From the NCBI RefSeq assembly GCF_023006325.1, contig NZ_JAINDF010000006.1:248001-312000 (forward strand): 64,000 nt of DNA, in the 5' to 3' direction. The notes under the pieces are model-generated. The model saw only the letters and a list, made by a program, of their open reading frames with translations, was not told where the DNA came from and ran no database searches. This DNA comes from Kordiimonas marina (GTDB lineage Bacteria; Pseudomonadota; Alphaproteobacteria; Sphingomonadales; Kordiimonadaceae). This document shows positions 9,526 through 33,139 of the stretch, piece after piece (position 1 is the first letter of the stretch; every line of letters begins with the position of its first letter). A program made the position numbers and the translations under genes.

Positions 9526-9529
9526 CGCC

Positions 9530-12367: not shown

Positions 12368-12389
12368 TGCGGGACGGAAGCCTCAGGTC

Positions 12390-13607: not shown

Positions 13608-13612
13608 AGGGC

Positions 13613-13780
13613 ATGGATACCATCTATTTCGTCATCTTCTGCCTGGCTGTGGCGTTCGTCATTTTCTGGAGCCTCAGAAACGACGATCTTGCCGATTTCG
13701 ATGATACGGCGATAAAGGATAAGAAATTCACACTCTCCAAAGGAGGGAAAGCGAAGGATTCGAACAACAAAGGCGATTGA
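13613..13780 (+). CDS. Small single-pass membrane protein (55 aa)
   Basis: An ATG five bases after the glycosyltransferase stop codon, preceded by a GGGGTAAAGGGC ribosome site, opens a 55-codon frame ending in TGA. Residues 3-21 form one membrane helix (IYFVIFCLAVAFVIFWSL). A charged cytosolic-looking tail follows, with DDLADFDD and a Lys/Gly/Asn end. It belongs to the operon by spacing. I do not recognise a family. A role as a small partner of the polymer export machine is guesswork. It could also be a chance frame, but the start signal and membrane helix argue against that. Confidence 0.65.
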   Translation: MDTIYFVIFCLAVAFVIFWSLRNDDLADFDDTAIKDKKFTLSKGGKAKDSNNKGD

Positions 13781-13827
13781 TTTTCAGTCCCAGTACTTTA
13801 TTTGTTCGATGTTGATTTATCGGGCTT

Positions 13828-13849
13828 TTTCTTGCCATAGTGCAAGAAA
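13828..13849. promoter_or_regulatory. Inverted repeat upstream of the export lipoprotein gene
   Basis: TTTCTTGC (13828-13835) and GCAAGAAA (13842-13849) form a perfect eight-base inverted repeat with a six-base spacer, in the only sizeable gap inside the operon. No T run follows, so an operator is more likely than a terminator. It may mark an internal promoter. Confidence 0.4.
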
Positions 13850-13901
13850 TGCGGGCCTTGTTGGCAGACAGGCCTGGCTAAGTTTTAGGTGGGAGATTGA
13901 C

Positions 13902-14543: not shown

Positions 14544-14589
14544 TATGATTAGACGCGTACGTTATGAGTAAGCGTTTTGGAGACGAGTA

Positions 14590-16221: not shown

Positions 16222-16243
16222 TGACGATGAATAGTGGAATGTC

Positions 16244-17377: not shown

Positions 17378-17389
17378 GGATTAAATCGG

Positions 17390-18859
17390 GTGGCATCAGG
17401 CAAGCCAATATTCGGTCTAATAAGGGGAGGGCTGGCCGCGGGGCTCGCGCTGAGTTCGCACGCGGCCTGGGCACAGCATATCTGGGTTGAACCGCGCGCC
17501 GAGGCCAAGCTGGCGCTGACGGATAATGCCACCTTGGTGGATACAGGCCGGATATCCGATGCGGTTCTCGATATTTCACCCGGTATCAATATGCGCATTG
17601 AAGGCCGCAAGACCAAAGGCGCGATCGATTATTCCTACGATTACCTCTATTTCATGTCGGACAAATCCACCGACCAGCGCCACCATCTGTTCGGGCTGAT
17701 TGATGCCGAGGTCTGGGAAGATCACCTGACGGTCAATGGCCGCGCGAGCGTGCAGGAAATGTTCATCGACCGAGGGGCGGGGCTGTCCAATACCATCGCC
17801 AACAGAAGCGCCAACAGGCGCACGGTCCAGAACTATACCACCGATGCCATCCTCAAGGGCGGCTTCAGGGATTTTGCTGATTGGCGACTGAGCTACCGGT
17901 TCGGTCTCATGCTGAGCCCCGCCGATAATCTGAATGATCCGACACTGACGGCTCATTTTTCGGATTCTGAGACCCACGAATTCGTGGGGTCGATCGGCTC
18001 GGGCGATCGGTTCAACAATCTGGAATGGACCATTTCTGCCAACCGGTCGACCGTGATCCGCAGCCTGGCAGTGGCCAACTATCTCAATGAAAGTGTCAAA
18101 GGGGAGTTCTGGTACAAGTTCAACCGGCATTTCGCCATCGTCGGGTCGCTTGGCTATACCAAGAATAATTTTCAGACCAGCGCACTTGCCGCAAATGGCC
18201 GCGCCTGGGAAGTTGGGGCACGCTGGACACCGGGCCAGAAGCTTGATCTGACGGTGAGGCGGGGCAAGGAAGGCAAGCGCAGTACCTGGTATGTCCGGCT
18301 CCAGCATTTTTTCTCTGCCCGGATCAATGTCACCGCCACCTACACGGATACCCTGTCCGCCATGTCTCTGGTAATGAACGATAGCCTGCAGGGTTATAAA
18401 TTCGACCAGTCAGGGGGCATTGTGGACCCGTCGGGCATTACGGTGGACAATAGCACGCCAAACTTTTCGCTCTCTGACGTGGATTTCCGACGCCGGTTCG
18501 CAAACGTCGTGCTGACATGGCAGAAACGTCGGTCTCAGATTTATTTCAGTGCGAATAATGAATGGCGCACGTACGATAATGCAACAGGTACAGCAAAAAC
18601 CTGGGGGATTTCCGGTGGACTGAAGCATAATATCGATGAGAATTCGAAACTTTCGGGCACACTAAGCTATCGACGGAGTAGATTTGAGAATTCAGTTCGG
18701 GTAGACAATTACATAGTTGGGGGTCTTGACTGGTCGAGGACTTTGTCGCGCTATTTTAAACTGTCGGTATCTGTGAACCACAGCGAAAGGTTGTCAAACA
18801 CGGCTGGCGGCAATTTGCGCGAAAATACTTTGACCATGTATCTCAGAGGGACTTATTAG
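17390..18859 (+). CDS. PEP-CTERM-associated outer membrane beta-barrel protein
   Basis: A 489-residue exported protein with a GTG start and a signal peptide cleaved after AAWA. The rest is rich in alternating aromatic and polar beta-strands (IDYSYDYLYFM, WRLSYRFGL, LTMYLRGTY) and ends in an aromatic residue, as barrel proteins do. Layout and context match the TIGR03016 family of exosortase A loci. It may form a second outer-membrane component for polymer passage. It starts 12 bases after the kinase. Confidence 0.85.
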   Translation: MASGKPIFGLIRGGLAAGLALSSHAAWAQHIWVEPRAEAKLALTDNATLVDTGRISDAVLDISPGINMRIEGRKTKGAIDYSYDYLYFMSDKSTDQRHHLFGLIDAEVWEDHLTVNGRASVQEMFIDRGAGLSNTIANRSANRRTVQNYTTDAILKGGFRDFADWRLSYRFGLMLSPADNLNDPTLTAHFSDSETHEFVGSIGSGDRFNNLEWTISANRSTVIRSLAVANYLNESVKGEFWYKFNRHFAIVGSLGYTKNNFQTSALAANGRAWEVGARWTPGQKLDLTVRRGKEGKRSTWYVRLQHFFSARINVTATYTDTLSAMSLVMNDSLQGYKFDQSGGIVDPSGITVDNSTPNFSLSDVDFRRRFANVVLTWQKRRSQIYFSANNEWRTYDNATGTAKTWGISGGLKHNIDENSKLSGTLSYRRSRFENSVRVDNYIVGGLDWSRTLSRYFKLSVSVNHSERLSNTAGGNLRENTLTMYLRGTY

Positions 18860-18865
18860 AGCGGC

Positions 18866-19903
18866 ATGTACGAAAGCTTTTACAATTTACAGGGACGGCC
18901 TTTCCAACTGACGCCGGACCCGCGCTTTTATTTTAGCTCCCGCACTCATAAGAAGGCGATGGCCTACCTGACCTATGGCCTGAACCAGGGCGAAGGTTTC
19001 ATTATCGTAACCGGTGACATTGGTACGGGTAAGACGACCTTGGTGCGTCACCTGTTCGACACGCTGGATCGCAACGAATTTATCGCAGCCATGATCGTCA
19101 GCACCCAGTTGAGCGCGGAGGACCTTTTGCGCAGTGTGGTCGCAGCGTTCGGGCTGGATGCCCAGGCCGATGACAAAGGCCAGTTGCTTGCACGGTTGGA
19201 GCGTCACCTCAGGGAACAATTCCGCATGGGGCGGCGCGCGCTTCTTGTGGTGGACGAAGCGCAGAACCTGTCGAACGCGGCCTTGGAAGAGATGCGGATG
19301 CTTTCTAACTTCCAGGAAGGCGACAAAGCCCTTCTGCAAAGCTTCCTCGTCGGCCAACCGGAATTCCGGGAGCGTATCTTCACAGCCCCCGAGCTTGAGC
19401 AACTGCGCCAGCGGGTGATCGCCACCCACCATCTGGAACCGATGGATAAGGAAGAACTGGCGGGCTATATCGAACACCGCCTGAAGCTTGTGGGCTGGGA
19501 TAATGACCCGTGTTTTACTGCAGATGCTGTGGAAGCCATCTACAGGCATACCGCAGGTGTGCCGCGGCGCTTGAATACGCTGTGTTCGCGTGTCCTGCTC
19601 TTCGGGGCGCTTGAGGAAGTTCACACCATCGATGGGGATACCATCGAAAGCGTGGTGGCCGATATGGCCAGCGATACCCGGCAGGTTACGCCGACGTCCT
19701 CCGCCCGTCTGACCCCTCCGCCCGTCAGCCCACGGAATGATGGGACGGTGCCGCTTGAAGCCAAGACGGACAAAAATGCCAAGGAAATGCAGGACCGGAT
19801 CAACCAGCTCGAAACCATGATGAAGTCGCAGGACGAGACCTTGAAACGCCTGACGGAGCTGATGACCAATCTCGCGGGTGGCGGCAAGAAGGATGACAGC
19901 TGA
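18866..19903 (+). CDS. XrtA-associated ExeA-like AAA ATPase
   Basis: A 345-residue P-loop ATPase. The N-terminal YESFYNLQGRPFQLTPDP motif is typical of ExeA/GspA-type ATPases. Walker A is GDIGTGKTTL, Walker B is ALLVVDEAQ, and arginines follow in the PRRLNTLCSRVL sensor region. A helical, Gln/Lys-rich tail (about 300-340) looks like a coiled coil. It is a standard member of XrtA loci (TIGR03015), of unknown exact role. The stop codon overlaps the deacetylase start. Confidence 0.93.
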   Translation: MYESFYNLQGRPFQLTPDPRFYFSSRTHKKAMAYLTYGLNQGEGFIIVTGDIGTGKTTLVRHLFDTLDRNEFIAAMIVSTQLSAEDLLRSVVAAFGLDAQADDKGQLLARLERHLREQFRMGRRALLVVDEAQNLSNAALEEMRMLSNFQEGDKALLQSFLVGQPEFRERIFTAPELEQLRQRVIATHHLEPMDKEELAGYIEHRLKLVGWDNDPCFTADAVEAIYRHTAGVPRRLNTLCSRVLLFGALEEVHTIDGDTIESVVADMASDTRQVTPTSSARLTPPPVSPRNDGTVPLEAKTDKNAKEMQDRINQLETMMKSQDETLKRLTELMTNLAGGGKKDDS

Positions 19904-20816
19904 AGGCCTGAGCTCAGCCCCTTTTATTGCGCCAGTGGAGGCGTCGGTCTCTTATGACGGCCGTCATGCCTTCACGGTCGATGTCGAAGAATGGTTCCAG
20001 GTCGGGGCGTTCGAAACCACATTGAAGCGGGAAGACTGGCCTGCGCTCGAAAGCCGGGTCGAACGCCAGACCTATGCCATTCTGGCGCTGCTTGAAGAAA
20101 CCGGTGTGAAGGCGACCTTCTTTTGCCTGGGCTGGGTGGCTGAACGTAAGCCGCTGCTCATTCATGCGCTTCATGAAGCGGGTCATGAGGTGGCCTGCCA
20201 CGGCAGGGACCACCGCCGTTTGTTCACCATGGACCGCAAAACTTTCGAGCGTGACCTGACGGTTGCCAAGGCGCAGCTTGAAGATGCGATCGGCGCACCT
20301 GTGCGGGGTTACCGCGCGCCCAGTTTTTCGCTGACGCCGGATATCTGGTGGGTGTATGACGCGCTGGCTGCTGCGGGCTTTATCTACTCGTCCAGCCTTT
20401 ATCCTTTGAAAACAGATCATTACGGGATGCCTGCGGCGCCGCGCCAGCCCTTTTGGCCGGTGGCGGATCGGTCCGTCCTAGAAGTGCCGATGACGGTTTG
20501 CCATGTGTTTGGCCGCTCATTGCCGGCGTCTGGCGGCGGGTATTTCCGTCTGCTGCCGTATGCCCTCGGTCGTTGGCTTCTGGCGAAAGGCAGTAAGCAG
20601 GCGGGCAGCCCGGCAGTTTTCTATATGCACCCGTGGGAGATGGACCCGGACCAGCCGTTTGTCGCCGATGCCCCGTGGCTATCGCGTTTCCGGCACTATA
20701 CCGGCCAGCGCGCGCTTGAGGGCAAACTCCGGCGCTTGCACAAGGATTTCCGCTGGGGACGCATGGATGAAACCATCGTAGCGCCGGTTTTGAAGGCGGA
20801 AGGGCGGGTGCTGTGA
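19893..20816 (+). CDS. XrtA-system polysaccharide deacetylase
   Basis: A 307-residue NodB-fold deacetylase that probably removes acetyl groups from the exopolysaccharide. Motifs seen are FTVDVEEWFQV (catalytic and metal aspartate), ATFFCLGWVAE, HEVACHGRDH (metal histidines), RGYRAPSFS and FYMHPWEMD. The C-terminal DUF3473-like region fits TIGR03006. The ATG at 19893 overlaps the ATPase stop by 11 bases. A GTG at 19878 is the alternative. No signal peptide is seen, so its site of action is unclear. Confidence 0.92.
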   Translation: MTAEGLSSAPFIAPVEASVSYDGRHAFTVDVEEWFQVGAFETTLKREDWPALESRVERQTYAILALLEETGVKATFFCLGWVAERKPLLIHALHEAGHEVACHGRDHRRLFTMDRKTFERDLTVAKAQLEDAIGAPVRGYRAPSFSLTPDIWWVYDALAAAGFIYSSSLYPLKTDHYGMPAAPRQPFWPVADRSVLEVPMTVCHVFGRSLPASGGGYFRLLPYALGRWLLAKGSKQAGSPAVFYMHPWEMDPDQPFVADAPWLSRFRHYTGQRALEGKLRRLHKDFRWGRMDETIVAPVLKAEGRVL

Positions 20817-21859
20817 GCCTGACGGTCCGACAGATGGAAGCCACGGATGTGGCCGCGTGGGATAGCTTCGTTGCAGGCCATCCTGATGGCACCTTCTGTC
20901 ACCGTGCCGGTTGGAAGCAGGTACAGGAAGTGGGCGCGGGGCAGGAAAGTCCGTTCCTGCTTGCGGAAGACGAAGGCGGGCGTCTTGTCGGGGTCATGCC
21001 GCTCACGTTCCGCAACAGCCTGCTGTTCGGGCGCGCGGCCATGTCCAGCATGTTCGGGGTTTATGGTGGCGCCTTGGCGGAAACCGGCGCGGCTTACCAG
21101 GCTTTGGAAGACGAAGCCTGGAAGCGGGCGCAAGCCTGGGGCGCGGACGTGCTCGAGTGCCGGACGGTCAAGGCGCGCCATGCCGAAATGGAGGGCTGGC
21201 AGGTGCCGGCCCCGAAGGCGGCTACTTTCCGAAAAACCTTGGCGGATGATGAGGATGGACTTCTCAAGGCGATCCCGCGCAAGCAGCGGGCGGTGGTTAG
21301 AAAGGCGCTTGAAGGCGGTCTCAGTTCGGACTGGAGCGGGGACTTGGACACCTTCTATGCGCTTTATGCCCGCAGCGTTCATGCGCTTGGGACGCCGGTA
21401 TTCCCTAAGAAAATATTCGAAGTGATGGCCGATGTTTTCGCGCCCAATCTCGATATTCAGGTCGTTCGGGACCAGGCTGGCAGGGCGGTGGCGAGCCTGA
21501 TGAGCTTTTATGATGCTGATACCGTGCTGCCTTATTATGCGGGGTCAGGCCCGGGTGCGCGCGAGGCGAAAGCCCATGACTATATGTATTTCGACCTGAT
21601 GAAACGGGCGCGTGAACGCGGTAAGACAGTGTTCGATTTCGGGCGCAGCAAAATCGGCAGCGGTCCTTATTTCTTCAAGAAAAACTGGGGCTTAGAGCCG
21701 ACGCCGCTTGAGTATGAATACCGCGTGGCGGCGGGCGCCCAGGTTCCGGACCTGTCCCCGACCAGCGGCAAATATGCGCTGATGGTCAAGGTATGGAAAC
21801 GGCTACCTTTATGGCTTGCCAACCGGCTCGGCCCGCCGGTCGCGCGGCACCTGGGATAG
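20813..21859 (+). CDS. FemAB-family PEP-CTERM system protein
   Basis: A 348-residue GNAT-fold protein of the FemAB type, matching the exosortase-associated family TIGR03019. Conserved parts are TFCHRAGWKQV at the start, PRKQRAVVRKAL in the middle and FDFGRSKIGSGPYFFKKNWG near the end. FemAB enzymes join amino acids to peptidoglycan or other amines; here a transfer to exopolysaccharide or protein is only proposed. The GTG start overlaps the deacetylase stop as GTGA, which indicates translational coupling. Confidence 0.9.
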   Translation: MSLTVRQMEATDVAAWDSFVAGHPDGTFCHRAGWKQVQEVGAGQESPFLLAEDEGGRLVGVMPLTFRNSLLFGRAAMSSMFGVYGGALAETGAAYQALEDEAWKRAQAWGADVLECRTVKARHAEMEGWQVPAPKAATFRKTLADDEDGLLKAIPRKQRAVVRKALEGGLSSDWSGDLDTFYALYARSVHALGTPVFPKKIFEVMADVFAPNLDIQVVRDQAGRAVASLMSFYDADTVLPYYAGSGPGAREAKAHDYMYFDLMKRARERGKTVFDFGRSKIGSGPYFFKKNWGLEPTPLEYEYRVAAGAQVPDLSPTSGKYALMVKVWKRLPLWLANRLGPPVARHLG

Positions 21860-21870
21860 GGGGTAACACT

Positions 21871-23103
21871 ATGGCCCGTATCCTTTTTCTCGCGCACCGC
21901 ATCCCGTATCCACCCAACAAGGGTGACAAGATCCGATCATGGCATTTTTTCGAGCATCTGGCCCAGCAGCATGACGTGCATCTGGGCTTTTATGTCGATG
22001 ACAAACGCGACCTGCAACACATTCCGTTCCTTGAGAATATGTCAGCAAGCCTATGTTTTGAAACGGTAAGTCCTTTCCGACAAAAGCTGCGCGGGCTGGT
22101 TTTGGGGTTGCTGCAACAGTTGCCCTTCACGCTTGCCGCTTATCCGCAAAAGCGGTTAAAGGCTTATGCGAAAAGGCTTATTGAGAATGACGAGGTCGAC
22201 CTGGTCTTTTTGTTCTCAGCAGCGACAGCGCCGCTGGTTATGGAAAAAGACCGTATTTTCAAAGGGCTACCGGTCGTTGCTGACCTGGTGGATATGGATT
22301 CGGCCAAGTGGTCCGCCTATGCTGCACGCTCCCGCTGGCCTTTTAGCGCGCTATACCGCAGAGAAGCGCGGCTTTTGCGGGCTTTTGAGGCCGAAATCGC
22401 TGGTGTTGCAGATGCAACAGTTTTCGTCACCGACGCGGAAGCCAGGCTGTTCCGGCAGGAGACCGACAGCAAGGGCCGGGTCGAAGCCGTGCCGAACGGG
22501 GTCGACCTCAAAATGTTCGACCCGGATCGTTTCAGTGCCGGACCGAAAAATGCTGCCGAAGAACCGGTGGTCATTTTCACCGGTGCGATGGACTATCGGC
22601 CCAATGTCGAGGCGGCTGTGTGGTTTTGCCGGCATGTCTGGCCGCAGGTACGGCGCGCGATACCCGGCGCGCGGTTCAAAATCGCCGGGGCGCCGGTCGC
22701 CCCACGTGTGACGGAGGAGGCCGCGAAGGCGGACGGCGTTGAGGTGCTGGGCTATGTCGAGGATATGGCGGCGGAGATTGCCGCGGCTGACATCGCGGTT
22801 GCGCCGCTCCTGACCGCGCGGGGCCTGCAGAACAAGGTGCTGGAAGGCATGGCGATGGCAAAGCCGGTGATCGCGAGCCCGGCCGCGCTTGAAGGTATCG
22901 AGGCGGCCCCGGATGAAGACATCATGCTGGCGGACGGCCCGGGGGACTTTGCCTCAAGGCTGACCATGCTGCTGCATGACAGCGACAGGCGTACCGCGCT
23001 CGGTGCAAACGCCCGGCGCTTTGTCGAGGCCCATCATGCCTGGAAACCGGCGCTGGCCAAGTTCGACCGGCTGATCGCGGATGTGCTGGAGCGCAAGGGA
23101 TGA
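21871..23103 (+). CDS. XrtA-system glycosyltransferase (TIGR03087-like)
   Basis: A 410-residue GT-B glycosyltransferase. The start MARILFLAHRIPYPPNKGDKI is the hallmark of the PEP-CTERM-linked family. The donor-binding half has VVIFTGAMDYRPNVEAA, EVLGYVEDM and LEGMAMAKPVI. It likely adds a sugar to the lipid-linked repeat unit. The ATG at 21871 follows a GGATAGGGGG site; the frame is open further upstream. The stop overlaps the exosortase start as ATGA. Confidence 0.93.
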   Translation: MARILFLAHRIPYPPNKGDKIRSWHFFEHLAQQHDVHLGFYVDDKRDLQHIPFLENMSASLCFETVSPFRQKLRGLVLGLLQQLPFTLAAYPQKRLKAYAKRLIENDEVDLVFLFSAATAPLVMEKDRIFKGLPVVADLVDMDSAKWSAYAARSRWPFSALYRREARLLRAFEAEIAGVADATVFVTDAEARLFRQETDSKGRVEAVPNGVDLKMFDPDRFSAGPKNAAEEPVVIFTGAMDYRPNVEAAVWFCRHVWPQVRRAIPGARFKIAGAPVAPRVTEEAAKADGVEVLGYVEDMAAEIAAADIAVAPLLTARGLQNKVLEGMAMAKPVIASPAALEGIEAAPDEDIMLADGPGDFASRLTMLLHDSDRRTALGANARRFVEAHHAWKPALAKFDRLIADVLERKG

Positions 23104-24638
23104 CGGGCGCGCCCCATGCCCGCCTCCAGTTGATGCCGGTGGCCTTATGGCTTTCCGGTCTTCTCCTGATCGGGCTGGCCTGGTGGCCGGATGCGCAGAA
23201 CCTTGCTTGGCTCGTATGGACCAGGGACACCTATAACTACGGCCTTTGGGTGCCGGTGATCAGCCTGTGGCTTATCTGGCGTGACAGGGACAGGCTTCAG
23301 GGCCAAGCCTTAACGCCGTGGCTCGGCGGCGCGCCGGTGATGGCGGGCGCGGCCATCCTGTGGCTGGCGGGAAGCTTTTTCGATGCTGGCCTCCTGCGTC
23401 ATCTGGCGCTGATCACGGCGTTGCAGGGGCTGACGCTGGTGGCGTTTGGGCCGGTGGTCTACCGCCGTGTCCTGTTCCCGATGCTGTTCCTCTATCTGAT
23501 GGTGCCGTTTGGCGAGGGGATGATACCACCCCTTCAGCAATTAACCGCGGACGGCACGATCCGTCTGCTCCGCCTGGTGGGCATCCCCGCCCAGTCGGAC
23601 GGTGTGCTGATCACCTTGCCGAGCGGGGTTTACGAGGTCGCCCGCGCCTGTGCCGGGGTCCAGTTCCTGTTCACCAGCCTGGTGATGAGCGTGCTGATGG
23701 CCTTCCTGGCGTTCCGGCGCTGGCGCAAACGCGCGGCCATGGTGCTTGCAGGCGTCCTGGTGCCGATTTTGGCCAATATTCTGCGGGTTTTCAGCATCCT
23801 GGTGATCTCGGAACTGACAAGCCAGCAGTTTGCCAAAAGCATCGACCATATCGTGTACGGATGGGTGTTCCTGTCCTTCATCCTCCTGATCCTGATCGCC
23901 CTCGCTTACCGTTATGCCGATAACGCGGAAGACGAGGCAGAGGCGGACCCCGGTGAGGTGGCGGCGCCGACACGGCAGGCTATGGCCTGGATCGCGGTCC
24001 TCATCCTTCTGCCGCTGGGTGCGCGGCTTTTGCTGCCCCCGGTCGAGGCTTCGACTGTTTGCCCGCTGCCGGACAAACCCCTGCCGGCCTGCGAAGGGTG
24101 CGGCTACCGTTTGCTGGATGCCAGCCACACATATGGCTGGCCGCTTTATGCTGGGACGGACAAGGAAGGCAAGGCCCTGTACCGGCATGCAGGCATCCGG
24201 CTTCAGCTTTACCGCGCGCTCTATAGCCCGGAACGGCCCGGTCACCGGCTCAGCGGGCTTGAAAACCGGCTGGGGAGTGATGGCTGGGCGCCGCTGCCGG
24301 GCCGGGGTGGTACCACGGTGACCGTGGGGGCTTACAAAGCCCGGGAAATCGTCCTGTGGCGCGGCGCGGCGCGGCGGCTTGTGTGGCAACTTCAGTTTGT
24401 CGGCGGTCATGCTGTCACATCACTGTGGCAAGCCAAGCTGTGGGGCGGGTTTGCCAGGCTGCGCCATGGGGCTGCCCGTGCGGCGGTCCTCAGCGTCTCA
24501 ACCGAGATATCCGGTACGGAAAACGCGGCGCGCGCCGAGATCCGGAATTTTCTATCGACTTTTCCCCCTGAAACGATTTTATGGGATGGGGGCATAAACG
24601 CGGATAAGGATATTTTATGTGCGGCATCAGCGGGATAA
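23100..24638 (+). CDS. xrtA: Exosortase A with C-terminal EpsI-like domain
   Basis: A 512-residue membrane transpeptidase-like enzyme that processes PEP-CTERM proteins. About eight hydrophobic helices span residues 15-272. The proposed catalytic residues are all visible: Cys184 in RACAGVQFL, Arg229 in NILRV and His250 in DHIVYGW. A soluble C-terminal part (about 290-512) resembles EpsI, as is usual for exosortase A. It would recognise the VPAP tail of the surface protein at 4287. The start overlaps the glycosyltransferase stop by four bases. The end overlaps the amidotransferase start by 22 bases. Confidence 0.93.
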   Translation: MTGAPHARLQLMPVALWLSGLLLIGLAWWPDAQNLAWLVWTRDTYNYGLWVPVISLWLIWRDRDRLQGQALTPWLGGAPVMAGAAILWLAGSFFDAGLLRHLALITALQGLTLVAFGPVVYRRVLFPMLFLYLMVPFGEGMIPPLQQLTADGTIRLLRLVGIPAQSDGVLITLPSGVYEVARACAGVQFLFTSLVMSVLMAFLAFRRWRKRAAMVLAGVLVPILANILRVFSILVISELTSQQFAKSIDHIVYGWVFLSFILLILIALAYRYADNAEDEAEADPGEVAAPTRQAMAWIAVLILLPLGARLLLPPVEASTVCPLPDKPLPACEGCGYRLLDASHTYGWPLYAGTDKEGKALYRHAGIRLQLYRALYSPERPGHRLSGLENRLGSDGWAPLPGRGGTTVTVGAYKAREIVLWRGAARRLVWQLQFVGGHAVTSLWQAKLWGGFARLRHGAARAAVLSVSTEISGTENAARAEIRNFLSTFPPETILWDGGINADKDILCAASAG

Positions 24639-26515
24639 TGACGGCAGACGGTGCGGGGGTCGACCAGTCGGCCCTCAGGCGGATGACCGACCGGATCGCC
24701 CACCGCGGCCCTGATGGCGAAGGCTTTTTCTGGGGCGCGGGCGTTGCCCTTGGCCACCGCAGGCTCGTCATTCTGGATGAAAGCGGCGGTGTGCAGCCCA
24801 TGTATGGCGCCGACGACCAGGTCGTGATTAGCTACAATGGCGAAATCTATAATTTCCAGACGCTTCGGCGCGAGCTGGAACTGCTGGGCCATACGTTCAA
24901 GACCGACCATTCCGACACCGAAACCCTGCTTCATGCCTATCTGGAATGGGGCAGGGACTGCGTGCACCGGCTGCGGGGCATGTTTGCCTTCGCTATCTGG
25001 GACAACAGAACCGGTGAGCTGATGCTGGCGCGCGACCGCCTCGGCATCAAACCGCTTTACTATGGCACGCTGCCGGATGGCACCTTCCTGTTCGCGTCGG
25101 AGCTGAAGGCGCTCCTCACCCATCCGGGCCTGCCGCGCAAGCTGCGGCTTGATGCGCTGGAGGACTATCTCGCGCTTGGCTATGTCCCGGACCCCAAAAC
25201 CATCATCGACGGGGTGGAGAAGCTGGCGCCGGGTCATACGCTGGTGCGCCGGAAAGGCCAGCGCCACGCGGTGCCTGAACGCTATTGGGCACCCGATGTC
25301 ACCACGCCGCACGCAAAGGAAAACGATGCAAGCGAGTTTCTGGAGCGGCTTGAAGAAGCCGTGAAGATGCGCATGGTCGCTGACGTACCTTTGGGGGCAT
25401 TCCTGTCCGGCGGGCTGGATTCCAGCACCGTTGTCGGCCTGATGAGCCGCAACAGCGCGGAGCCGGTGGAAACCTGTGCGATCGGGTCGGAGGACCCGGC
25501 CTATGACGAAAGCGGTTTCGCCCAGCTTGCTGCCGATCATTTCCATACCCACCACCGGCTGCGCCTGTCGTCACCCGAAGACGGCTTTTTGCTGAAATGC
25601 ATGGCGGACGTCTATGACGAGCCATTCGCGGACCTGTCGGCCTTGCCGACATACCGGGTGTGTGCGCTGGCGCGGGAAAAGGTGAAGGTGGCGCTGTCAG
25701 GCGATGGCGGCGATGAACTGTTCGCGGGCTACAGACGCTACCGCTTCCATATGGCGGAGGAAGGGCTGCGCTCGATGCTGCCGCTGGGCCTCAGGCGCCC
25801 GCTTTTTGGCACACTGGCCCGGCTTTACCCCAAAATGGACTGGGCGCCCCAGTTCCTGCGCGCCAAATCCACCTTCGATGCGCTCGCCCGGTCCTCGGTT
25901 GAGGCCTATTTCCAAAGCGTCAGCAAAACGCCGGACCGTGACCGTGTGCGCCTGCAGTCAGCCAAAATGAAGATGCGGCTCGCGGGTTATCATCCCCATG
26001 ACCGCTTCAAGGAAATCGCGGATGAGGTCAAGGGCGCCCACGCGCTTTCGGTCGTGCAATATATCGATTTCATGACCTATCTGCCCGGCGATATCCTGAC
26101 CAAGGTGGACAGGGCCAGCATGGCTCATTCGCTGGAGGTCCGCGTGCCGGTGCTGGACCACAAGTTCGTCGAATGGGGGCTCAGGTTCGACCCCGATGCC
26201 CGCATCCATGACGGTGAGGGCAAGGCGATCTTCAAGAACGCCGTGCGGGGCTTTCTGCCGGACGAGATTATCGACAGGCCCAAGCGGGGCTTTGACGTGC
26301 CGGCGGTGAACTGGCTCCGCCACGAACTGGTGCCTGAGCTGGAAAAGCTCACGAACAGTGAACGGCTGCTGGATTCAGGGCTGATCGACCGCCGGGGGCT
26401 CCGCCGCATGGTCGATGAACATGTGAAGGGAGAAAGGGACCATCATACGACCTTATGGTCCCTTCTGATGCTCGACGGGTCGCTGGAACAGCTTGACTTG
26501 GATACCGCGGCCTAA
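24617..26515 (+). CDS. XrtA-system amidotransferase (asparagine synthase-like)
   Basis: A 632-residue class II glutamine amidotransferase fused to an ATP-pyrophosphatase domain. Cys2 (MCGISG) is the nucleophile for glutamine. The PP-loop SGGLDSS is at about residues 264-270. In exosortase loci this subfamily (TIGR03108) is thought to amidate a sugar acid or related group of the exopolysaccharide rather than make asparagine. It is the last gene of the operon and starts inside the xrtA end. Confidence 0.93.
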   Translation: MCGISGIMTADGAGVDQSALRRMTDRIAHRGPDGEGFFWGAGVALGHRRLVILDESGGVQPMYGADDQVVISYNGEIYNFQTLRRELELLGHTFKTDHSDTETLLHAYLEWGRDCVHRLRGMFAFAIWDNRTGELMLARDRLGIKPLYYGTLPDGTFLFASELKALLTHPGLPRKLRLDALEDYLALGYVPDPKTIIDGVEKLAPGHTLVRRKGQRHAVPERYWAPDVTTPHAKENDASEFLERLEEAVKMRMVADVPLGAFLSGGLDSSTVVGLMSRNSAEPVETCAIGSEDPAYDESGFAQLAADHFHTHHRLRLSSPEDGFLLKCMADVYDEPFADLSALPTYRVCALAREKVKVALSGDGGDELFAGYRRYRFHMAEEGLRSMLPLGLRRPLFGTLARLYPKMDWAPQFLRAKSTFDALARSSVEAYFQSVSKTPDRDRVRLQSAKMKMRLAGYHPHDRFKEIADEVKGAHALSVVQYIDFMTYLPGDILTKVDRASMAHSLEVRVPVLDHKFVEWGLRFDPDARIHDGEGKAIFKNAVRGFLPDEIIDRPKRGFDVPAVNWLRHELVPELEKLTNSERLLDSGLIDRRGLRRMVDEHVKGERDHHTTLWSLLMLDGSLEQLDLDTAA

Positions 26516-26558: not shown

Positions 26559-27245
26559 TTAACGATTGTCGAGCGCGTAGCCGGCGGAGCGGACGGTGCG
26601 GATGAAATCCTTGCCGCCATGTTCGTTGATCGCCTTGCGCAGACGGCGGATATGAACGTCCACCGTGCGCGGTTCGACATAGACGTCATGGCCCCACACC
26701 GAATCCAGCAGTTGCTCGCGCGAGAAGACGCGGCCCGGATTTTCCATGAAGTGACGCAGGAGCCGGTATTCGGTCGGCCCCAGATGCACGGGCTGATCGC
26801 CGCGCGTCACCCGGTGGGAGACATTGTCGAGCTTGATATCCTCGAACACCAGTTCATGGCCTGCAAGGGCAGGGCGGACGCGGCGGAGCACCGCCTGGAT
26901 ACGGGCCAGCAGTTCCTTCGGCGAGAAGGGCTTGACGATATAATCGTCGGCACCGGTCTCCAGGCCGCGGATACGGTCAGGCTCGTCCGCGCGGGCGGTG
27001 AGCATGATGATCGGCACATTGGCCGTGGTGTCCTTGCGGCGCAGCTGGCGGCAGATTTCAAGGCCGGAAAGGTTCGGCAGCATCCAGTCCAGCAGGATGA
27101 CGTCGGGGCATTCCTGGCTGGCGTGGTAAAGACCTTCCTCGCCGTCGGCGATCGCTTCAACCTGATAGCCTGCGCGTTCAAGATTGTAGCGCACCAGCTC
27201 GGTGATGTTCTCGTCGTCCTCGATGAGAAGAATACGTGTTTTCAA
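26559..27245 (-). CDS. phoB: Phosphate regulon response regulator PhoB
   Basis: A 228-residue OmpR-type regulator. The receiver domain has the acidic pocket ED10-D11, phospho-acceptor D53 in LLDWMLPN and Lys in VKPFSPKEL. The C-terminal winged helix has VHLGPTEYRLLRHF and PRTVDVHIRRLRKAI. It activates phosphate-starvation genes when phosphorylated by PhoR. It lies 18 bases downstream of phoU on the same strand, which supports PhoB over other OmpR members. Confidence 0.93.
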   Translation of the reverse strand: MKTRILLIEDDENITELVRYNLERAGYQVEAIADGEEGLYHASQECPDVILLDWMLPNLSGLEICRQLRRKDTTANVPIIMLTARADEPDRIRGLETGADDYIVKPFSPKELLARIQAVLRRVRPALAGHELVFEDIKLDNVSHRVTRGDQPVHLGPTEYRLLRHFMENPGRVFSREQLLDSVWGHDVYVEPRTVDVHIRRLRKAINEHGGKDFIRTVRSAGYALDNR

Positions 27246-27263: not shown

Positions 27264-27977
27264 TTAGTCGTCGGACTCATCCAACACGGTGGTGCTGGTT
27301 TCGTCGTTTTTCGGACGCGCGTCCTCAAGCAGGGTGCCGGTGATGGCATAATAGACCTGCTCGGCTACATTCGTCGCCTGATCGCCGATCCGTTCCAGGT
27401 TCTTGGCGATCATCAGATAGTGGGTCAGCGCATTGATCTGATCCGGCGCTTCCATCATGCGGGCCAGGATCTGCCGGTAAGCGGCATTATGCATATTGTC
27501 GAGGTTCTCATCGCGCTCCCACACGTCCATGGCCGCGTTGGCGTCATTGTGAACGTATGAGTCCATCACCTCTCGGATCATGACGCGGGCTTCGGCGGCC
27601 ATGCGGTCCAGCGTGGCCGGCATGGGGACCGGGTCGCTTTCGGCGATCGCGAGGGTGCGCTTGGCGATATTCTTGGCATAGTCGCCCATGCGTTCGATGA
27701 GGCTGGTCATCTTGAGCGCGGCAACGACAACCCGCAGGTCATCGGCCACCGGGGCGCGGAGGGCGAAGAGCGTGATGGCGGCGCGCTCAGCCTGGAGCTC
27801 CATCTGGTCCAGGGTCTGGTCGGCCACGCGGACTTTATGCGCTTTTTCGACGTTGGTTTCCCTCAAGGCTTCCATAGCGGCGACCAGTTGGTCTTCTGCC
27901 ATACCGCCCATGCGGCTCACAATGGTCCGCAGGTCCTTGAGGTCGTCGTCGTATGCACGCATGGTATGCTCTGTCAT
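27264..27977 (-). CDS. phoU: Phosphate signalling protein PhoU
   Basis: A 237-residue all-helical protein with two PhoU repeats (AYDDDLKDLRTIVSRMGGMAEDQ, and LERIGDQATNVAEQVYY with the metal-site ExxxD pattern). It links the Pst transporter to PhoR and dampens the Pho response when phosphate is ample. The ATG at 27977 has an AAAGG site seven bases upstream. A TTG at 27998 gives a longer form without a good site. The pst transporter genes, often adjacent, are absent. Confidence 0.94.
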   Translation of the reverse strand: MTEHTMRAYDDDLKDLRTIVSRMGGMAEDQLVAAMEALRETNVEKAHKVRVADQTLDQMELQAERAAITLFALRAPVADDLRVVVAALKMTSLIERMGDYAKNIAKRTLAIAESDPVPMPATLDRMAAEARVMIREVMDSYVHNDANAAMDVWERDENLDNMHNAAYRQILARMMEAPDQINALTHYLMIAKNLERIGDQATNVAEQVYYAITGTLLEDARPKNDETSTTVLDESDD

Positions 27978-28417
27978 TCTGGTACCTTTCTTAGCCAAAC
28001 GCCCCGTAATCTTACTGCGGGTGCGTTCCCGCTTCGGTGCTGTATGAAACTCGGGTCGCTTCCTACCGGCCGCGGTTCGCCGTTTTCATAAATTGACGAT
28101 AAACACTCCCATACCGATCATCAAGAGCAGTCGGTGGTATCCCCCTATGAAGAAGGATGTTTCTGGAAGCGGCGGCCTTCACGGCACGCGGCAGTCTAGG
28201 ATCGGTGAGGCCATATAGGGCAGGGCAGCGGCGGAGGCTTGGAACATCCGGGCGCCCAGAAACGGTAGTGCCGAGTGCTTGTTCATTATACCTGTCTCCG
28301 CCCTTATGGCCTCACCAAAAGGTGTAAGAGTTCAAGCAGGGCCTGTTGAGGCTCTGGTTGGTTGCGTATCCCAATATAGAGGCATTGTTACAAAGTGATG
28401 ACGGGCGGGAACGTGGC
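27978..28417. other. 440-base gap between phoR and phoU
   Basis: No convincing gene is seen where pstSCAB would often stand. A 32-codon minus-strand frame from 28286 has a GGAG-like site but no recognisable product. A promoter-like pair upstream of phoU is listed separately. A small CACC-AAAA-GGTG hairpin and scattered short repeats are present. I see no Pho-box tandem repeat. Confidence 0.6.
28096..28124 (-). promoter_or_regulatory. Possible sigma-70-type promoter of phoU-phoB
   Basis: On the minus strand TTGATG and TATCGT are separated by 17 bases, about 120 bases upstream of the phoU ATG. The match to the -35 box is fair and to the -10 box weak. Confidence 0.35.
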
Positions 28418-29725
28418 TTATGACGCTTCCGTGACGGGCTGAGCTTGGCCGACTTTGCCGGGAATCGGCAGGCGGAAGCTGAAAGACGTGCCTTTGCCGA
28501 GCTGGCTCTTGATTTCCATCTGGCTGCCGTGGCGCAGGAGGATGTGTTTGACGATCGCGAGGCCGAGGCCGGTGCCGCCCATCTTGCGAGAACGCGCGGT
28601 GTCGACCCGGTAGAAGCGTTCGGTCAGGCGCGCCAGGTGCTCGGGGGCGATTCCCGGTCCTTCGTCGCGGATGGTGATCGTCACATGGCGGCCACCGTAA
28701 TGCGGTGTGGCGGTGACATGGACGGTGGTGCCTCTTTCGGCATATTTGGCGGCGTTCGACAGCAGGTTGAGAAGGACCTGGGTGATCTGGTCGGCGTCGG
28801 CCACGACCATTTTGACATCGGGCGCCGTCTGTTGGTCGAACTTGATTCCGCGTTCGCTGGCCTGGGGCAGCACGGTATTGATGCTGCTGGCGATCAGTTG
28901 CGGAAGGTCGATGGTCGAAGTCGGCGCGACATGGCGCGACATTTCAATGCGCGACAGGGACAGAAGGTCGTCGATCAGCCGGACCATGCGCTCGGCTTCC
29001 TTCTGCATGATGCCGAGGAAGCGTTGCTGGGCCTCCTGGTCGTCCATCGCCGGGCCCTGCAGGGTTTCAATGAAGCCGATAAGGGACGTAAGCGGTGTGC
29101 GCAGTTCGTGGCTGGCGTTGGCGACAAAGTCGGCGCGCATCTGTTCGGTCTTCAGGAGGCTGGTGACCTCATAGAAGAAGACCATCGCCTGGGCGCCGAT
29201 GGTGCCGTCGTCACTGGCCGGGACGGGGGCGACCGTCACGTCGAAGCTGCGTTCGTTGCTGGAGGTATAGCGGATGGTGCCGAACTCGACCTGCTTGCCG
29301 CTGATGACGGCGTCGAGCGCGTTGACGAAATTCGACTGGCGCAGATAAAGCACGACATCGTTATTGAGGATGTCGCTGCCGAGAAGGTCGAGGGCGGCCT
29401 GGTTGGCGAAGGCGATTCTCTGCTGGTCGTCGATCAGGAGTACGGGCGAGGGCAGGCGGTTGAGCGTGTTGGCGCGCACGGTCATCGCACCCTGCTTGGT
29501 GGTGCGGCGCTGTTCGCGCACGGTTTCCCGCATGAGTCTCAGGGATTCCATCCGGCGTTTGATCCGGAGCTGGATCAGGAGCGTCCAGGCGGTGGCGAAG
29601 ACGATGATGGCGCCGAGAAGGCTGACCTGGCCGAAATACCAAAGAATTACGAGCGCAAGCGTGATCATCATGATGATCGACCGCTCGTTCAAAAGGCGCC
29701 GGTACTCTTTAAGGGATACACTCAT
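28418..29725 (-). CDS. phoR: Phosphate regulon sensor kinase PhoR
   Basis: A 435-residue histidine kinase. Two N-terminal membrane helices (about 16-52) precede a PAS domain (about 90-190). The HisKA box SHELRTPL carries phospho-acceptor H206. The ATPase domain has NLLSNAAKYA and GTGLGLAIVKHIL. It phosphorylates PhoB under phosphate limitation. The short periplasmic part is typical of PhoR, which senses through PhoU and Pst rather than directly. It is separated from phoU by 440 non-coding bases. Confidence 0.9.
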   Translation of the reverse strand: MSVSLKEYRRLLNERSIIMMITLALVILWYFGQVSLLGAIIVFATAWTLLIQLRIKRRMESLRLMRETVREQRRTTKQGAMTVRANTLNRLPSPVLLIDDQQRIAFANQAALDLLGSDILNNDVVLYLRQSNFVNALDAVISGKQVEFGTIRYTSSNERSFDVTVAPVPASDDGTIGAQAMVFFYEVTSLLKTEQMRADFVANASHELRTPLTSLIGFIETLQGPAMDDQEAQQRFLGIMQKEAERMVRLIDDLLSLSRIEMSRHVAPTSTIDLPQLIASSINTVLPQASERGIKFDQQTAPDVKMVVADADQITQVLLNLLSNAAKYAERGTTVHVTATPHYGGRHVTITIRDEGPGIAPEHLARLTERFYRVDTARSRKMGGTGLGLAIVKHILLRHGSQMEIKSQLGKGTSFSFRLPIPGKVGQAQPVTEAS

Positions 29726-29929
29726 TCCATCGCCAGTTTATCGCAATACGCCATGCATGCGGGAGGGGGGATTTCGCCCAAAATAGTCGGACCGGATTTA
29801 AGAGAATATATATTGCAGTTTCGTGACAAGGGAAAAATTAGCCTTTTCTGCCGTTTAAACCGTGCGTCATAATGACTTTTTTCTCGTCAGGACTTGAAGA
29901 ATAGCCTAGACCGGGCCAAATTGCGGCTG

Positions 29930-30000: not shown

Positions 30001-30870
30001 ATGAACGAGCCGAACGAAAAAGACAGCGTTTTTCTTGAAAAGCGACGCCAACTACTGAAGTTGGGGGCGGCCGGTGTGCCTATGCTCCTGACGATGAAAG
30101 CGTCGGCGGCCCAGCCGCTGCATTCCGCACTGGATTGCGCGATCACCATCCCGTCGGGCATGTGCATCATGGTCGGCAGTGACGGTGCGGCCTGGATTTC
30201 GACCCGCTATAATTATGACGGCAGCAAGCTCACGAACGGCAAGGTCAAGCAGTTCAAGAGTGCGTCGGAATATGTCCTGCCTGCGGGCTCTGTGCCTGCG
30301 CGCTACCGCCCCGACGGCAATTGCCCAACCGACCCGTGCAGCAGCAGCGGCGGCAGCAGTGGTGATGACGATGAAGGCGGCCATTGGGGACACCATAGCC
30401 AACAGGAAAGCGGCTTTGCGGCGCTTTTCGACCGCCTGACCCTGACGCGGACCGCTCAGGCCGACGATACGCTTTATGCGTCCGACTGGGGGCATAGCGG
30501 AGGTGAAGGCGACGACAGTGATGACGGCAGCAGCGGATGTCCTACCTCCGGCGGTGACGACGATGACAATCATGACAGCTATTCCAGCAACCACTGGGGA
30601 AGCAGCGACGATAATCATGACGATGACGAGGGCGGCAGCAGCGGCAGTAACGATACGTCCAGCTGCGACTACAAGATCTATTGTTTCGACAGCTCAACCC
30701 AGTTCCAGCCGGGCACCTTCATTGACGCCAACGGCAACTGGAACCTGAGCGGCGACCTGGGCCTCTACACCATCGTCGCGGCGAAATACGGGGAATATTA
30801 CGGCACCTACAATAACTTCCCCGGCGTGTCGTGTATGCTGTCGATCATGACTTACCTGAATAACCAGTAA
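30001..30870 (+). CDS. Exported Asp/Ser/Gly/His-rich cysteine protein, unknown function
   Basis: A 289-residue protein that I do not recognise. Residues 14-37 form an export signal with a twin-arginine-like RRQLLKLGA core, ending ASAA. Residues about 113-222 are low complexity, with runs of Ser, Gly, Asp and His (GDDDDNHD, GSSDDNHDDD), broken by a helical stretch near 137-160. Eight cysteines occur (46, 55, 108, 113, 180, 222, 228, 278). The C-terminal 65 residues look folded, rich in Tyr. The next three genes encode a PqqD-like chaperone, an HprK-related kinase and a nucleotidyltransferase, so it may be their substrate. That link is inference. A GTG-less ATG at 30001 gives the clean signal; an ATG at 29983 is possible. 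Confidence 0.75.
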   Translation: MNEPNEKDSVFLEKRRQLLKLGAAGVPMLLTMKASAAQPLHSALDCAITIPSGMCIMVGSDGAAWISTRYNYDGSKLTNGKVKQFKSASEYVLPAGSVPARYRPDGNCPTDPCSSSGGSSGDDDEGGHWGHHSQQESGFAALFDRLTLTRTAQADDTLYASDWGHSGGEGDDSDDGSSGCPTSGGDDDDNHDSYSSNHWGSSDDNHDDDEGGSSGSNDTSSCDYKIYCFDSSTQFQPGTFIDANGNWNLSGDLGLYTIVAAKYGEYYGTYNNFPGVSCMLSIMTYLNNQ

Positions 30871-30881
30871 AGCCCGCGGCC

Positions 30882-31187
30882 ATGGCGGCGGGGCCGAACA
30901 GAAAAACATGGCGCTGGCGGGCAAATCCCCGCCATTACCGGTGCCATGTGCTGGGTGATGTGACCTTCGTCTATAACCACCTGTCCGGCGATACCCACAT
31001 GCTCAACCTGGTCTCCATCGCGCTCCTGAACCTTATGGCGGAGCGGACCTTCACGCTGGACGAGCTTGCGGCGGCGTTTCCTGCCCATATGGATGTGTCT
31101 GCGGATGAATGCCCGCCCGGCGTGGTGTGGCGCCTGTTTGACGAGCTGGACGAGGTTGGCCTTGTCGAGCGGTCGGGCGGGGCCTGA
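30882..31187 (+). CDS. PqqD-like peptide chaperone (HPr-rel-A system)
   Basis: A 101-residue PqqD-fold protein with the family pattern of a short beta part (VLGDVTFVYNHLSGDTHMLN) and helices (LLNLMAERTFTLDELAAAF, VVWRLFDELDEVGLVE). PqqD-type proteins hold a precursor peptide for a modifying enzyme. Its position before an HprK-related kinase fits the family that NCBI names the HPr-rel-A system PqqD family chaperone. It starts 11 bases after the exported protein and ends three bases before the kinase. Confidence 0.85.
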   Translation: MAAGPNRKTWRWRANPRHYRCHVLGDVTFVYNHLSGDTHMLNLVSIALLNLMAERTFTLDELAAAFPAHMDVSADECPPGVVWRLFDELDEVGLVERSGGA

Positions 31188-31190
31188 CCG

Positions 31191-32114
31191 GTGCGGCGGC
31201 TGGAGGACTATGGCAGGCGGGCCGTGCGCCAGGCGCTTAGGCGCGGGACGCTGGTTCTGCACCTTGGCCCCTTCGCCATGCAGCTGAAGGCCGACAGCCG
31301 GGCGCTCCTGGCGTTTCTCCTGTCCATGTATGGGGCCTGCCATGCCACGCTGGAAGCGGGCGTGCTGGCTGACTTTTCGCTCCATGTGCGGGCGCCTAAT
31401 ATGATCAGGCGCTTTGTCCGCCGTCAGATCACGCCGGACCCCGGCTTTTATTTCCCGACCGTGCCGCTGCCGCGCCCGATGGCGCCCTTGGCGCTTGAGA
31501 TGGGGATGAACCTGGCGGTCGCGCTCCAGTGCTTCCGCTTCGCCATCTATCACGCCGGGGTAGTGGCGGACGAGCGGGGCGCCATTGCCATCTCCGCTTT
31601 CTCAGGCGGTGGAAAAAGCACGCTGACCGCGGCGTTGATGGAAGAAGGCTTCCGCCTGCTGTCCGACGAATTCGCGATCATGGGGCTGGATGAGCCCGGG
31701 CTTTACCCTTACCCGCGCCCGGTTTCGCTCAAAAACGCGTCGGTGGAAATCGTCCGGGCCTTCGCGGGCGCGGAGGAAATGAGCACGACGCTGACCGGCA
31801 CCCCAAAGGGCGACATCGGCTACCGCCGCGCGCGGCCGCACGAACTTGAAATGATGCACGAACCGGCGATGCCGAAGCTTTTGCTGTTTCCGCAGTTCAG
31901 CCTGGATGCCGAACCGCGCGCCGAAAAGGTGGAACCGGGCGACGCCGTCATGCGTTTCATCGCGGGCTCCCCCAATTATCACGCACTGGGCGAAGCCGCC
32001 TTCGGCAGCCTTATGGCCTTTGCCGACAGTGTCGCGGCCTATGACCTGCATTATGGCAACACGGCGGACAGCATCGCGCTCGTCAAGGACCTGTGGCGGG
32101 AGCATGGATCATGA
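31191..32114 (+). CDS. HprK-related kinase A
   Basis: A 307-residue P-loop kinase related to HPr kinase/phosphorylase. Walker A is SGGGKST (138-144), and GFRLLSDEFAIM (153-164) matches the acidic motif of HprK. The N-terminal 130 residues differ from HprK. Relatives in peptide-modification clusters phosphorylate serine of a precursor, but no reaction is proven for this subfamily. The GTG start lies right after the PqqD-like gene. The stop overlaps the next gene as ATGA. Confidence 0.87.
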   Translation: MRRLEDYGRRAVRQALRRGTLVLHLGPFAMQLKADSRALLAFLLSMYGACHATLEAGVLADFSLHVRAPNMIRRFVRRQITPDPGFYFPTVPLPRPMAPLALEMGMNLAVALQCFRFAIYHAGVVADERGAIAISAFSGGGKSTLTAALMEEGFRLLSDEFAIMGLDEPGLYPYPRPVSLKNASVEIVRAFAGAEEMSTTLTGTPKGDIGYRRARPHELEMMHEPAMPKLLLFPQFSLDAEPRAEKVEPGDAVMRFIAGSPNYHALGEAAFGSLMAFADSVAAYDLHYGNTADSIALVKDLWREHGS

Positions 32115-33139
32115 GCCGGTCGTTCCTGCAAATCGCCGTCGGTCTCGCGCCCTTGCCCACAGGGGAAAGGTTGGTGCGCTTTATCGGCTGGGGACGGCGC
32201 GCCCATATCCTCGGACAGCTCGCCACCGTGTGGGAGGAGCGGGCTGACGGCAAGCTCGCCGAAATTCTCGCCAACGCCCGCATCTGGGCCGGGCATGACA
32301 GGCGGATGCTGAGCTATGAAATGAACAGGATTACCCGCGCCCTGATGGGGACGGATATCTACCCCGTGCTTCTCAAGGGCGGGGCCTATGTCGCCAAGGC
32401 GCTGACGGCGGGCGAAGGCAGGCGGGTCAGCGATATCGACATCCTGGTGAAGGAAGACGAACTCGACCGGGTCGAAGCATCGCTCAAGGATGCAGGCTGG
32501 GTGGCCGATGAAGGCACCAGCGGTGACTATGACCAGCAATATTACCGGGCCTGGATGCATGAACTGCCGCCGCTCCGCCACAAAAGCCGGCGCACGGTGG
32601 TGGATGTGCACCACCGGCTGACCCCGCGCACCGCGCGGCTGAAGGTCGATCATGAAGCTATGTTCGCGGCGGCGCGGCCGACGGCGGATAGTGCGCTCAA
32701 GGTCTTCAACCCCACCGACCGTTTCATCCATGCCGCGATCCATATTTGTGCGGATGGCGCGTTCGAGACGCCGGAACGCAGCCTGATCGAGCTCTTTTAC
32801 CTGTTTGCCGACCTGAGCGAGGCGGAGGCCGAAGGCCTGCGCGCGCGGGCGGCTGAGGTTGGGGCCTTATGGCCGGTCGATCATGCGCTGTGGGCGATAA
32901 GCTGGTTCTTCGCCAACAAGCGCGCCCGGTCGCTTTGCAGGGAAGGGATGTTTGCGAAAGCCTTCGCCGCCCCCGTACGCTGGGCTATCCGCGCCAAGGT
33001 GGCGGGTGGCCTCAGGGCCAAGGCGGCCATGCTGCTCCTCTACCCGCGCAGCCATCTTCTCAGGATGCCGATCGGAATGCTGACGGTGCATCTGTTCAGG
33101 AAAGCGGTGCGGTCCCTCAGCGGGTCACAAGCGAACTGA
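32111..33139 (+). CDS. Nucleotidyltransferase-fold protein of the HprK-related cassette
   Basis: A 342-residue protein of the NTP_transf_5 type. KGGAYVAKAL is followed by RRVSDIDILVKEDEL, whose Asp pair is the likely metal site. HELPPLRHKSRRTVVDVHHRL matches the family's middle part. Such proteins accompany HprK-like kinases in peptide-modification clusters, where they could add a nucleotide or sugar nucleotide. The ATG at 32111 overlaps the kinase stop. The 3' end overlaps the convergent gph gene by 23 bases. Confidence 0.82.
   Translation: MSRSFLQIAVGLAPLPTGERLVRFIGWGRRAHILGQLATVWEERADGKLAEILANARIWAGHDRRMLSYEMNRITRALMGTDIYPVLLKGGAYVAKALTAGEGRRVSDIDILVKEDELDRVEASLKDAGWVADEGTSGDYDQQYYRAWMHELPPLRHKSRRTVVDVHHRLTPRTARLKVDHEAMFAAARPTADSALKVFNPTDRFIHAAIHICADGAFETPERSLIELFYLFADLSEAEAEGLRARAAEVGALWPVDHALWAISWFFANKRARSLCREGMFAKAFAAPVRWAIRAKVAGGLRAKAAMLLLYPRSHLLRMPIGMLTVHLFRKAVRSLSGSQAN

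Follow-up and report, generated by a model that had tools for sequence, protein, structure and literature searches.

What does an HprK-related kinase modify when its gene stands beside those for a PqqD-type protein, a nucleotidyltransferase and an exported-looking protein? Such a locus occupies positions 30001-33139 (+ strand) of the window, a stretch of 64,000 nucleotides from Kordiimonas marina (G000:C22:248001-312000, genome 3.68 Mb), in which the open reading frame (ORF) list gives P1, the exported-looking protein, followed by PqqD_rel_X, HprK_rel_A and NTP_transf_5 in a row. Comparison of these genes with their relatives leads us to consider it likely that the exported-looking partner, perhaps at a serine in its tail, is the target of modification before export. 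The four genes, with start codons picked by rule, are as follows.

30001..30870, + strand, P1, twin-arginine (Tat)-like exported-looking protein and proposed substrate of the cassette, 289 amino acids (aa), ATG at 30001; relatives adjoin the kinase
30882..31187, + strand, PqqD_rel_X, RRE-like peptide carrier, 101 aa; TIGR04353, with PF05402 below cut-off
31191..32114, + strand, HprK-related kinase A, 307 aa, GTG start; TIGR04352
32111..33139, + strand, NTP_transf_5 nucleotidyltransferase, 342 aa, ATG start; PF14907

P1 and the PqqD gene are separated by 11 bases and the PqqD gene and the kinase gene by 3 bases, and the nucleotidyltransferase start overlaps the kinase stop as ATGA. A sequence-only reading of this DNA had described four adjacent same-strand genes of named families with an 11-base gap after the first; positions and family matches agree with it.

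Family membership places the three downstream products in the HPr-rel-A system of NCBIfam. The kinase (TIGR04352 HprK_rel_A, 219.4 bits, cut-off 200) and the adjoining PqqD protein (TIGR04353 PqqD_rel_X, 51.3 bits, cut-off 35) pass both curated cut-offs, and the nucleotidyltransferase partner that belongs to this system is also present (PF14907 NTP_transf_5, 127.5 bits, cut-off 31.2). PqqD proteins bind peptides, and the match of the window protein to PF05402 fell just below the cut-off (21.7 bits, cut-off 23.4). In an alignment of 20 kinase sequences (A1), H121, K142 of the P-loop, D159 and E160 were invariant. The kinase sequence alone gave no matches to solved structures at E<=1; with the A1 profile, HPr kinases ranked first (1ko7, E 4e-4), around the P-loop. 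The likeness to HPr kinase/phosphorylase (PDB 1ko7, 1jb1) comprises this region, where H, K and D align, in a match that spans about 50 residues. A separate short HPr-kinase-type protein is encoded in the genome (PF07475, 74.3 bits). Close kinase relatives in viral contigs were also sought, and none of four pattern matches was confirmed by tblastn.

P1 itself matched no NCBIfam family (E<=0.1) and no Pfam family (E<=1), Tat-signal models included, nor did it carry a C-terminal PEP-CTERM/XrtA sorting signal recognised by NCBIfam, where no match of any kind appeared at E<=0.1. It contains eight cysteines, as the sequence-only reading had counted, and 12.1% Gly. Its description as Asp/Ser/His-rich stands for Ser (13.1%) and Asp (11.1%); His makes up 2.8% overall and reaches 5.7% in the middle only. 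Three parts of the protein matter here.

30001..30111, + strand, leader (residues 1-37) carrying RRxLLxxGAxxxP; from its conservation, a proposed Tat signal that PqqD would also bind
30337..30693, + strand, low-complexity Asp/Ser/Gly-rich stretch, about residues 113-231; missing from many relatives
30823..30843, + strand, C-terminal motif G275-V-S277-C278-M-L-S281, with invariant positions in 29 P1s; S281 is the proposed modified serine

The leader (EKRRQLLKLGAAGVPMLLTMKASAA) resembles a twin-arginine signal, and the genome encodes TatC (239 bits); we infer that P1 is exported via Tat. Conservation was evaluated in alignments of 19 short P1s (A2) and 29 larger P1s (A3), in both of which the second R of the RR pair was invariant. 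Mean pairwise identity in A3 was 0.70 in the leader (from RR to +22) and 0.73 in the tail motif, against 0.21 in most of the remaining mature part and 0.12 before RR; the corresponding A2 values were 0.64, 0.83, 0.55 and 0.18. Leader and tail were the best-conserved regions, with two conserved Cys and the tail motif, and R16, P27, S42, C46, G62, G275, S277, C278 and S281 were invariant in A3. Among 107 proteins of this architecture (type A), the number of Cys beyond the signal is exactly two in 58, a DDDD run is present in 22, and G stands two positions before the [ST] of the motif in 86; one of the 107 is a spurious 109-aa ORF of L160, a locus that also has a real one, and dropping it leaves the 22 and the 58 unchanged.

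Many Kordiimonadaceae P1s contain Asp-rich stretches, and short P1 relatives of about 121-145 aa lack the low-complexity stretch. A second P1-like gene lies elsewhere in eight genomes of the genus Kordiimonas (G003, G006, G010, G013, G014, G015, G017 and G018), and the five second copies that were read (L201-L205, 197-208 aa) keep leader and tail and lack the stretch. What is conserved in P1 is thus the leader, an early Cys and, close to the C-terminus, GxSCxxS, and the Ser/Asp-rich middle is dispensable. The abundance of Ser and Asp, which the sequence-only reading had offered as grounds for the substrate role, therefore fails as an argument, since the stretch is absent in relatives; the substrate idea stands on other evidence.

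That evidence is co-occurrence. We surveyed 159 loci, comprising the window, 38 stretches from relatives (L033-L070; G048 left out), 80 named loci (ranked highest among 543, with many among the first 20 repeating the same genomes) and 40 stretches chosen from match lists of phylum, class and order genomes. Told apart by their last 150 residues, these loci hold 138 distinct kinases, and we screened for a Tat-like protein with [ST]CxxS in its last 45 residues, encoded on the kinase strand and no more than about 3 kb upstream. A survey of this kind had been suggested from the sequence alone, and a protein of the same architecture does stand upstream of 102 of the 138 distinct kinases. By comparison, the motif is carried by 18 of the remaining 722 Tat-like ORFs of this DNA, a control set in which many ORFs are not genes. 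The remaining 36 loci have a motif variant (2; L122 and L179), another Tat-like protein (17), none (14) or a contig edge (3). Because the screen demands the motif, its S and C are present by construction; independently of the screen, among the 38 stretches from relatives, the motif protein was in place at all 27 loci with a tblastn match to the window P1 (25/25 within the family), and the G ahead of [ST] in 86/107 likewise owes nothing to the screen. At L098 (6427-6870) and similar Sphingopyxis-type loci, a MarR-family gene occupies the expected place of P1 ahead of the kinase; P1 lies elsewhere in the five genomes of one related genus that were searched.

Whole genomes gave the same association. 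HprK_rel_A exceeded its cut-off in 38/59 relatives (40/59 with two weaker near-full-length matches), 88/196 order genomes, 11/385 class genomes and 61/398 phylum genomes, the last count at E<=1e-30. P1 was searched in the same genomes as the kinase, with A2 for family f5 and the order and with A3 for the 59 relatives. P1 and the kinase occur together in 40 of the 149 f5 genomes; 5 have the kinase without P1, none has P1 without the kinase, and 104 have neither. P1 was present in 50 of the 196 order genomes (E 1e-5), all within the 90 kinase-positive ones, and in the f5 part of this sample the P1 and kinase sets are the same 32 genomes. Among the 59 relatives, P1 was found in 32, all within the 40 that are kinase-positive, leaving 8 kinase genomes without a match. 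The proposal of P1 as substrate is supported to the extent that this protein type was found only in kinase-positive genomes (32/32, 50/50 and 40/40, in overlapping samples), on grounds other than Ser/Asp abundance.

In six genomes P1 lies apart from the kinase (163 kb in G057, 279 kb in G810, 322 kb in G888 and 685 kb in G840, and on other contigs in G821 and G678), which is evidence less tied to neighbourhood. The G678 cassette is split, with P1 and PqqD_rel_X (41.1 bits, cut-off 35) in one place and the kinase and NTP_transf_5 (165.1 bits) elsewhere, and no PqqD-like ORF of at least 60 aa was recognised in the 1.5 kb upstream of that kinase. The counts support the conclusion that P1 belongs with the cassette and that their neighbourhood goes beyond chance.

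Related chemistry has been described, and to speak of a 'new kind' of modification, as was first suggested, is too strong, given that RRE-partnered HprK-like kinases already phosphorylate specific serines in lasso peptides (PMC9266682) and in linear phosphopeptides (PMC13381572). LppK, in concert with an RRE, phosphorylates a single Ser in the system of linear polyphosphorylated peptides (LPP); LppA receives one to four phosphates, LppK-dependent and all on S3, and its S3T and S3Y variants are not phosphorylated, while no activity was seen for LppN (PMC13381572). Among lasso peptides, PadeK phosphorylates the C-terminal Ser of the precursor, and PsmN, annotated as a nucleotidyltransferase, is linked to hexose on the same C-terminal Ser, with a nucleotidyltransferase role possible (PMC9266682).

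The LPP systems of Bacillota resemble the window in having a discrete RRE, an HprK-like kinase, an NTP transferase, a precursor gene and a setting among polysaccharide genes (PMC13381572), where the likeness of the enzymes is one of family assignment. LPP clusters have their own leader peptidase (SpI-like) and exporter (MsbA-like), and their precursors carry a leader of the YxxPxVLxHQ type and a modified Ser close to the core N-terminus, whereas the window cassette has a Tat-like leader, an often larger precursor and a conserved C-terminal Ser. Neither an SpI-like peptidase nor an MsbA-like exporter is among the four genes or was seen by eye in the window ORF list, with no profile search aimed at them, and the LPP precursor motif YxxPxVLxHQxIxFETxxS is absent from P1 by reading. 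The lasso tail kinases PadeK, ThcoK and PsmK phosphorylate the C-terminal Ser of the precursor, as is proposed here; they differ in their H-K-D-D motif (PMC9266682), against H-K-D-E in the window kinase, and the substrate proposed here, about 120-300 aa long, looks exported. No lasso macrolactam cyclase or B2 protease is among the four cassette genes, and the XrtA amidotransferase at 24617-26515 reached 250 bits against NF033535, a lasso cyclase model with a cut-off of 525.

We put at roughly 0.6 the probability that the four genes encode a substrate and its modification enzymes, with a carrier, a kinase acting on the tail Ser, a nucleotidyltransferase and Tat export. The PadeK/PsmN and LPP precedents suggest, by analogy, leader binding, phosphorylation of a tail Ser, nucleotidyltransferase elaboration and Tat export in the following form. 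P1 would be made with its RR leader, by which PqqD_rel_X, as an RRE, would hold it. HprK_rel_A would then phosphorylate a Ser of P1, most likely S281 of G-x-[ST]-C-x-x-S, with S277 as second choice, and the NTP_transf_5 enzyme would extend the phosphoserine with a nucleotide or a sugar-phosphate. Tat would export the modified P1, whose two conserved Cys may pair outside, and the product may act in or on the exopolysaccharide (EPS) layer, as the frequent XrtA/EPS neighbourhood suggests.

Several observations weigh against this reading. Five f5 genomes with the kinase (G919, G921, G953, G972 and G984) gave no match for P1 at E 1e-10, and the Fisher values for f5, the order and the 59 relatives (4e-31, 4e-22 and 2e-9) overstate the association because samples overlap and genomes are related. 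The 17 loci with a Tat-like protein lacking the tail motif mean that the site cannot be general; a further 14 loci, 10 of which were judged from the upstream region only, have no Tat-like protein upstream, including L164 and L185, which sit in EPS-type clusters. When 21 partner proteins were scanned, Tat models matched three, each time below cut-off, and the window P1 was not one of the three. The kinase reads D-E where HPr kinases read D-D, and deletion of lppN, analogous to the nucleotidyltransferase, changed nothing in the published system (PMC13381572). The tail motif also fits a structural disulphide without modification. No biochemical data were found for any HPr-rel-A enzyme, and a literature search, with most subscription journals outside its coverage, returned no paper naming HprK-related kinase, HPr-rel-A or the four model names.

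It is unlikely, although the motif Cys is as invariant as the Ser, that P1 is modified on a conserved Cys or another residue while the tail Ser is structural, or that a second class of partners is modified near the mature N-terminus, at C-x-x-S. These type B partners have an RR leader, an early Cys and an S-P-G-Y-W-like motif, and were assigned by eye, not by model, at L109, L151, L153, L163, L168, L170, L171, L175, L177 and L180. The early Cys is invariant in 10 aligned type B proteins, several of which have it as C-x-x-S-G, consistent with such a site. No family exceeded its cut-off in the eight type B proteins scanned, nor in the 21 partner proteins (P1s and type B) compared with NCBIfam, so the partner is not found in that library. 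What speaks for Ser over Cys is that the HprK-type peptide kinases of PMC9266682 and PMC13381572 act on Ser, and that even the S3T and S3Y substitutions left LppA unphosphorylated.

Serine modification of P1 also has to be weighed against a cassette that modifies an EPS small molecule or glycan, with P1 as a co-regulated exported helper. The XrtA/EPS neighbourhood, the EPS-type loci L164 and L185 without upstream P1, and the retention of a PhoR-like gene beside P1 in 6/6 loci where P1 is away from the kinase would all suit a helper. We consider it rather improbable, in that PqqD and RRE proteins bind peptides, P1 tracks the kinase even when unlinked, and P1 and PqqD stay together in G678. A third view keeps P1 as substrate and takes many Ser and Asp of the low-complexity stretch as modified, yielding a multiply phosphorylated surface protein. 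The composition of the window P1 and the Asp-rich stretches of many Kordiimonadaceae P1s invite it, but the stretch is gone from the relatives of about 121-145 aa and from the five second Kordiimonas copies, middle identity is 0.21, DDDD occurs in only 22/107, and LppK and PadeK each target just one Ser; we rejected the stretch as a general target, given the relatives without it, and regard this view as very doubtful. That P1 is an unrelated exported protein placed there by chance is scarcely credible in the face of the locus and genome co-occurrence counts, even though distant P1s share little sequence beyond leader and tail.

With P1 taken as the substrate, an orphan enzyme set (61/398 sampled phylum genomes, E<=1e-30) gains a concrete candidate substrate and residue, and the function of HPr-rel-A thereby becomes a question for mass spectrometry. 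If true, RRE-guided kinase chemistry would extend from small peptides to exported proteins and would be linked to exopolysaccharide and phosphate-control loci. Variant cassettes would fit elaboration of a phosphoserine. At L165 (6468-8585), a single frame of 706 aa encodes the kinase and NTP_transf_5 as a fusion, next to a Tat-like SCWGS protein, and in Sphingobium (L103, 6441-7640; L127, 6441-7643) a GT4-type glycosyltransferase gene, assigned by Pfam, lies between P1 and PqqD. A similar glycosyltransferase ORF was seen by reading at L135. As a tentative and wider proposal, which may well not hold, a phylum-wide export-coupled modification would phosphorylate the serine of a C-terminal Cys-x-x-Ser in the cytoplasm, extend the phosphate to a nucleotide- or sugar-phosphodiester and send the folded product through Tat, giving a protein-glycan link in XrtA-type exopolysaccharide, with phosphate control via the phoR-like gene in Alphaproteobacteria.

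The neighbouring genes that bear on this proposal are listed below.

23100..26515, + strand, exosortase XrtA and XrtA-system amidotransferase; TIGR03109 270.3 and TIGR03108 860.7 bits, both over cut-off; genomic context only
26559-27245, - strand, PhoB; 347.1 bits, cut-off 296.2
27264-27998, - strand, PhoU; 204.2 bits, cut-off 130.25
28418..29725, - strand, PhoR-like histidine kinase, divergent from P1; TIGR02966 312.3 bits, below the cut-off of 334.2
29812..29829, - strand, weak Pho-box-like site; 10/14 consensus positions

In 30/40 kinase-positive relatives, XrtA and the kinase are no more than 15 kb apart, and an XrtA match (E<=1e-20) was found in 39/40 kinase-positive vs 12/19 kinase-negative relatives. 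Among the phylum, class and order stretches, 17/40 have an XrtA-cluster-type protein and 12/40 the amidotransferase. In 97 loci, counted with repeats, P1 has a divergent PhoR-like neighbour, identified by tblastn with the window histidine kinase; these loci include the six with P1 away from the kinase and yield 79 distinct intergenic regions. With a Pho-box consensus, the best match upstream of P1 averaged 9.76/14 in 21 Kordiimonadaceae regions vs 8.78 (standard deviation, SD, 0.17) in dinucleotide shuffles, and 8.79 vs 8.72 (SD 0.09) in 58 other regions, an excess confined to Kordiimonadaceae; among the Kordiimonadaceae regions scoring at least 10, 8/10 have the site pointing to phoR. Old synteny accounts for part of the phoR-P1 pairing, and phosphate control is only a lead. 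An exopolysaccharide gene cluster spans 8134-26515 and ends in XrtA and the amidotransferase, its other genes being named by eye. At 4287-6830 (- strand) lies a gene for a large exported-looking protein that had no NCBIfam match at E<=0.1; by eye it is PEP-CTERM-like, with Pro-Thr repeats and VPAP...RRERKRRK at its end.

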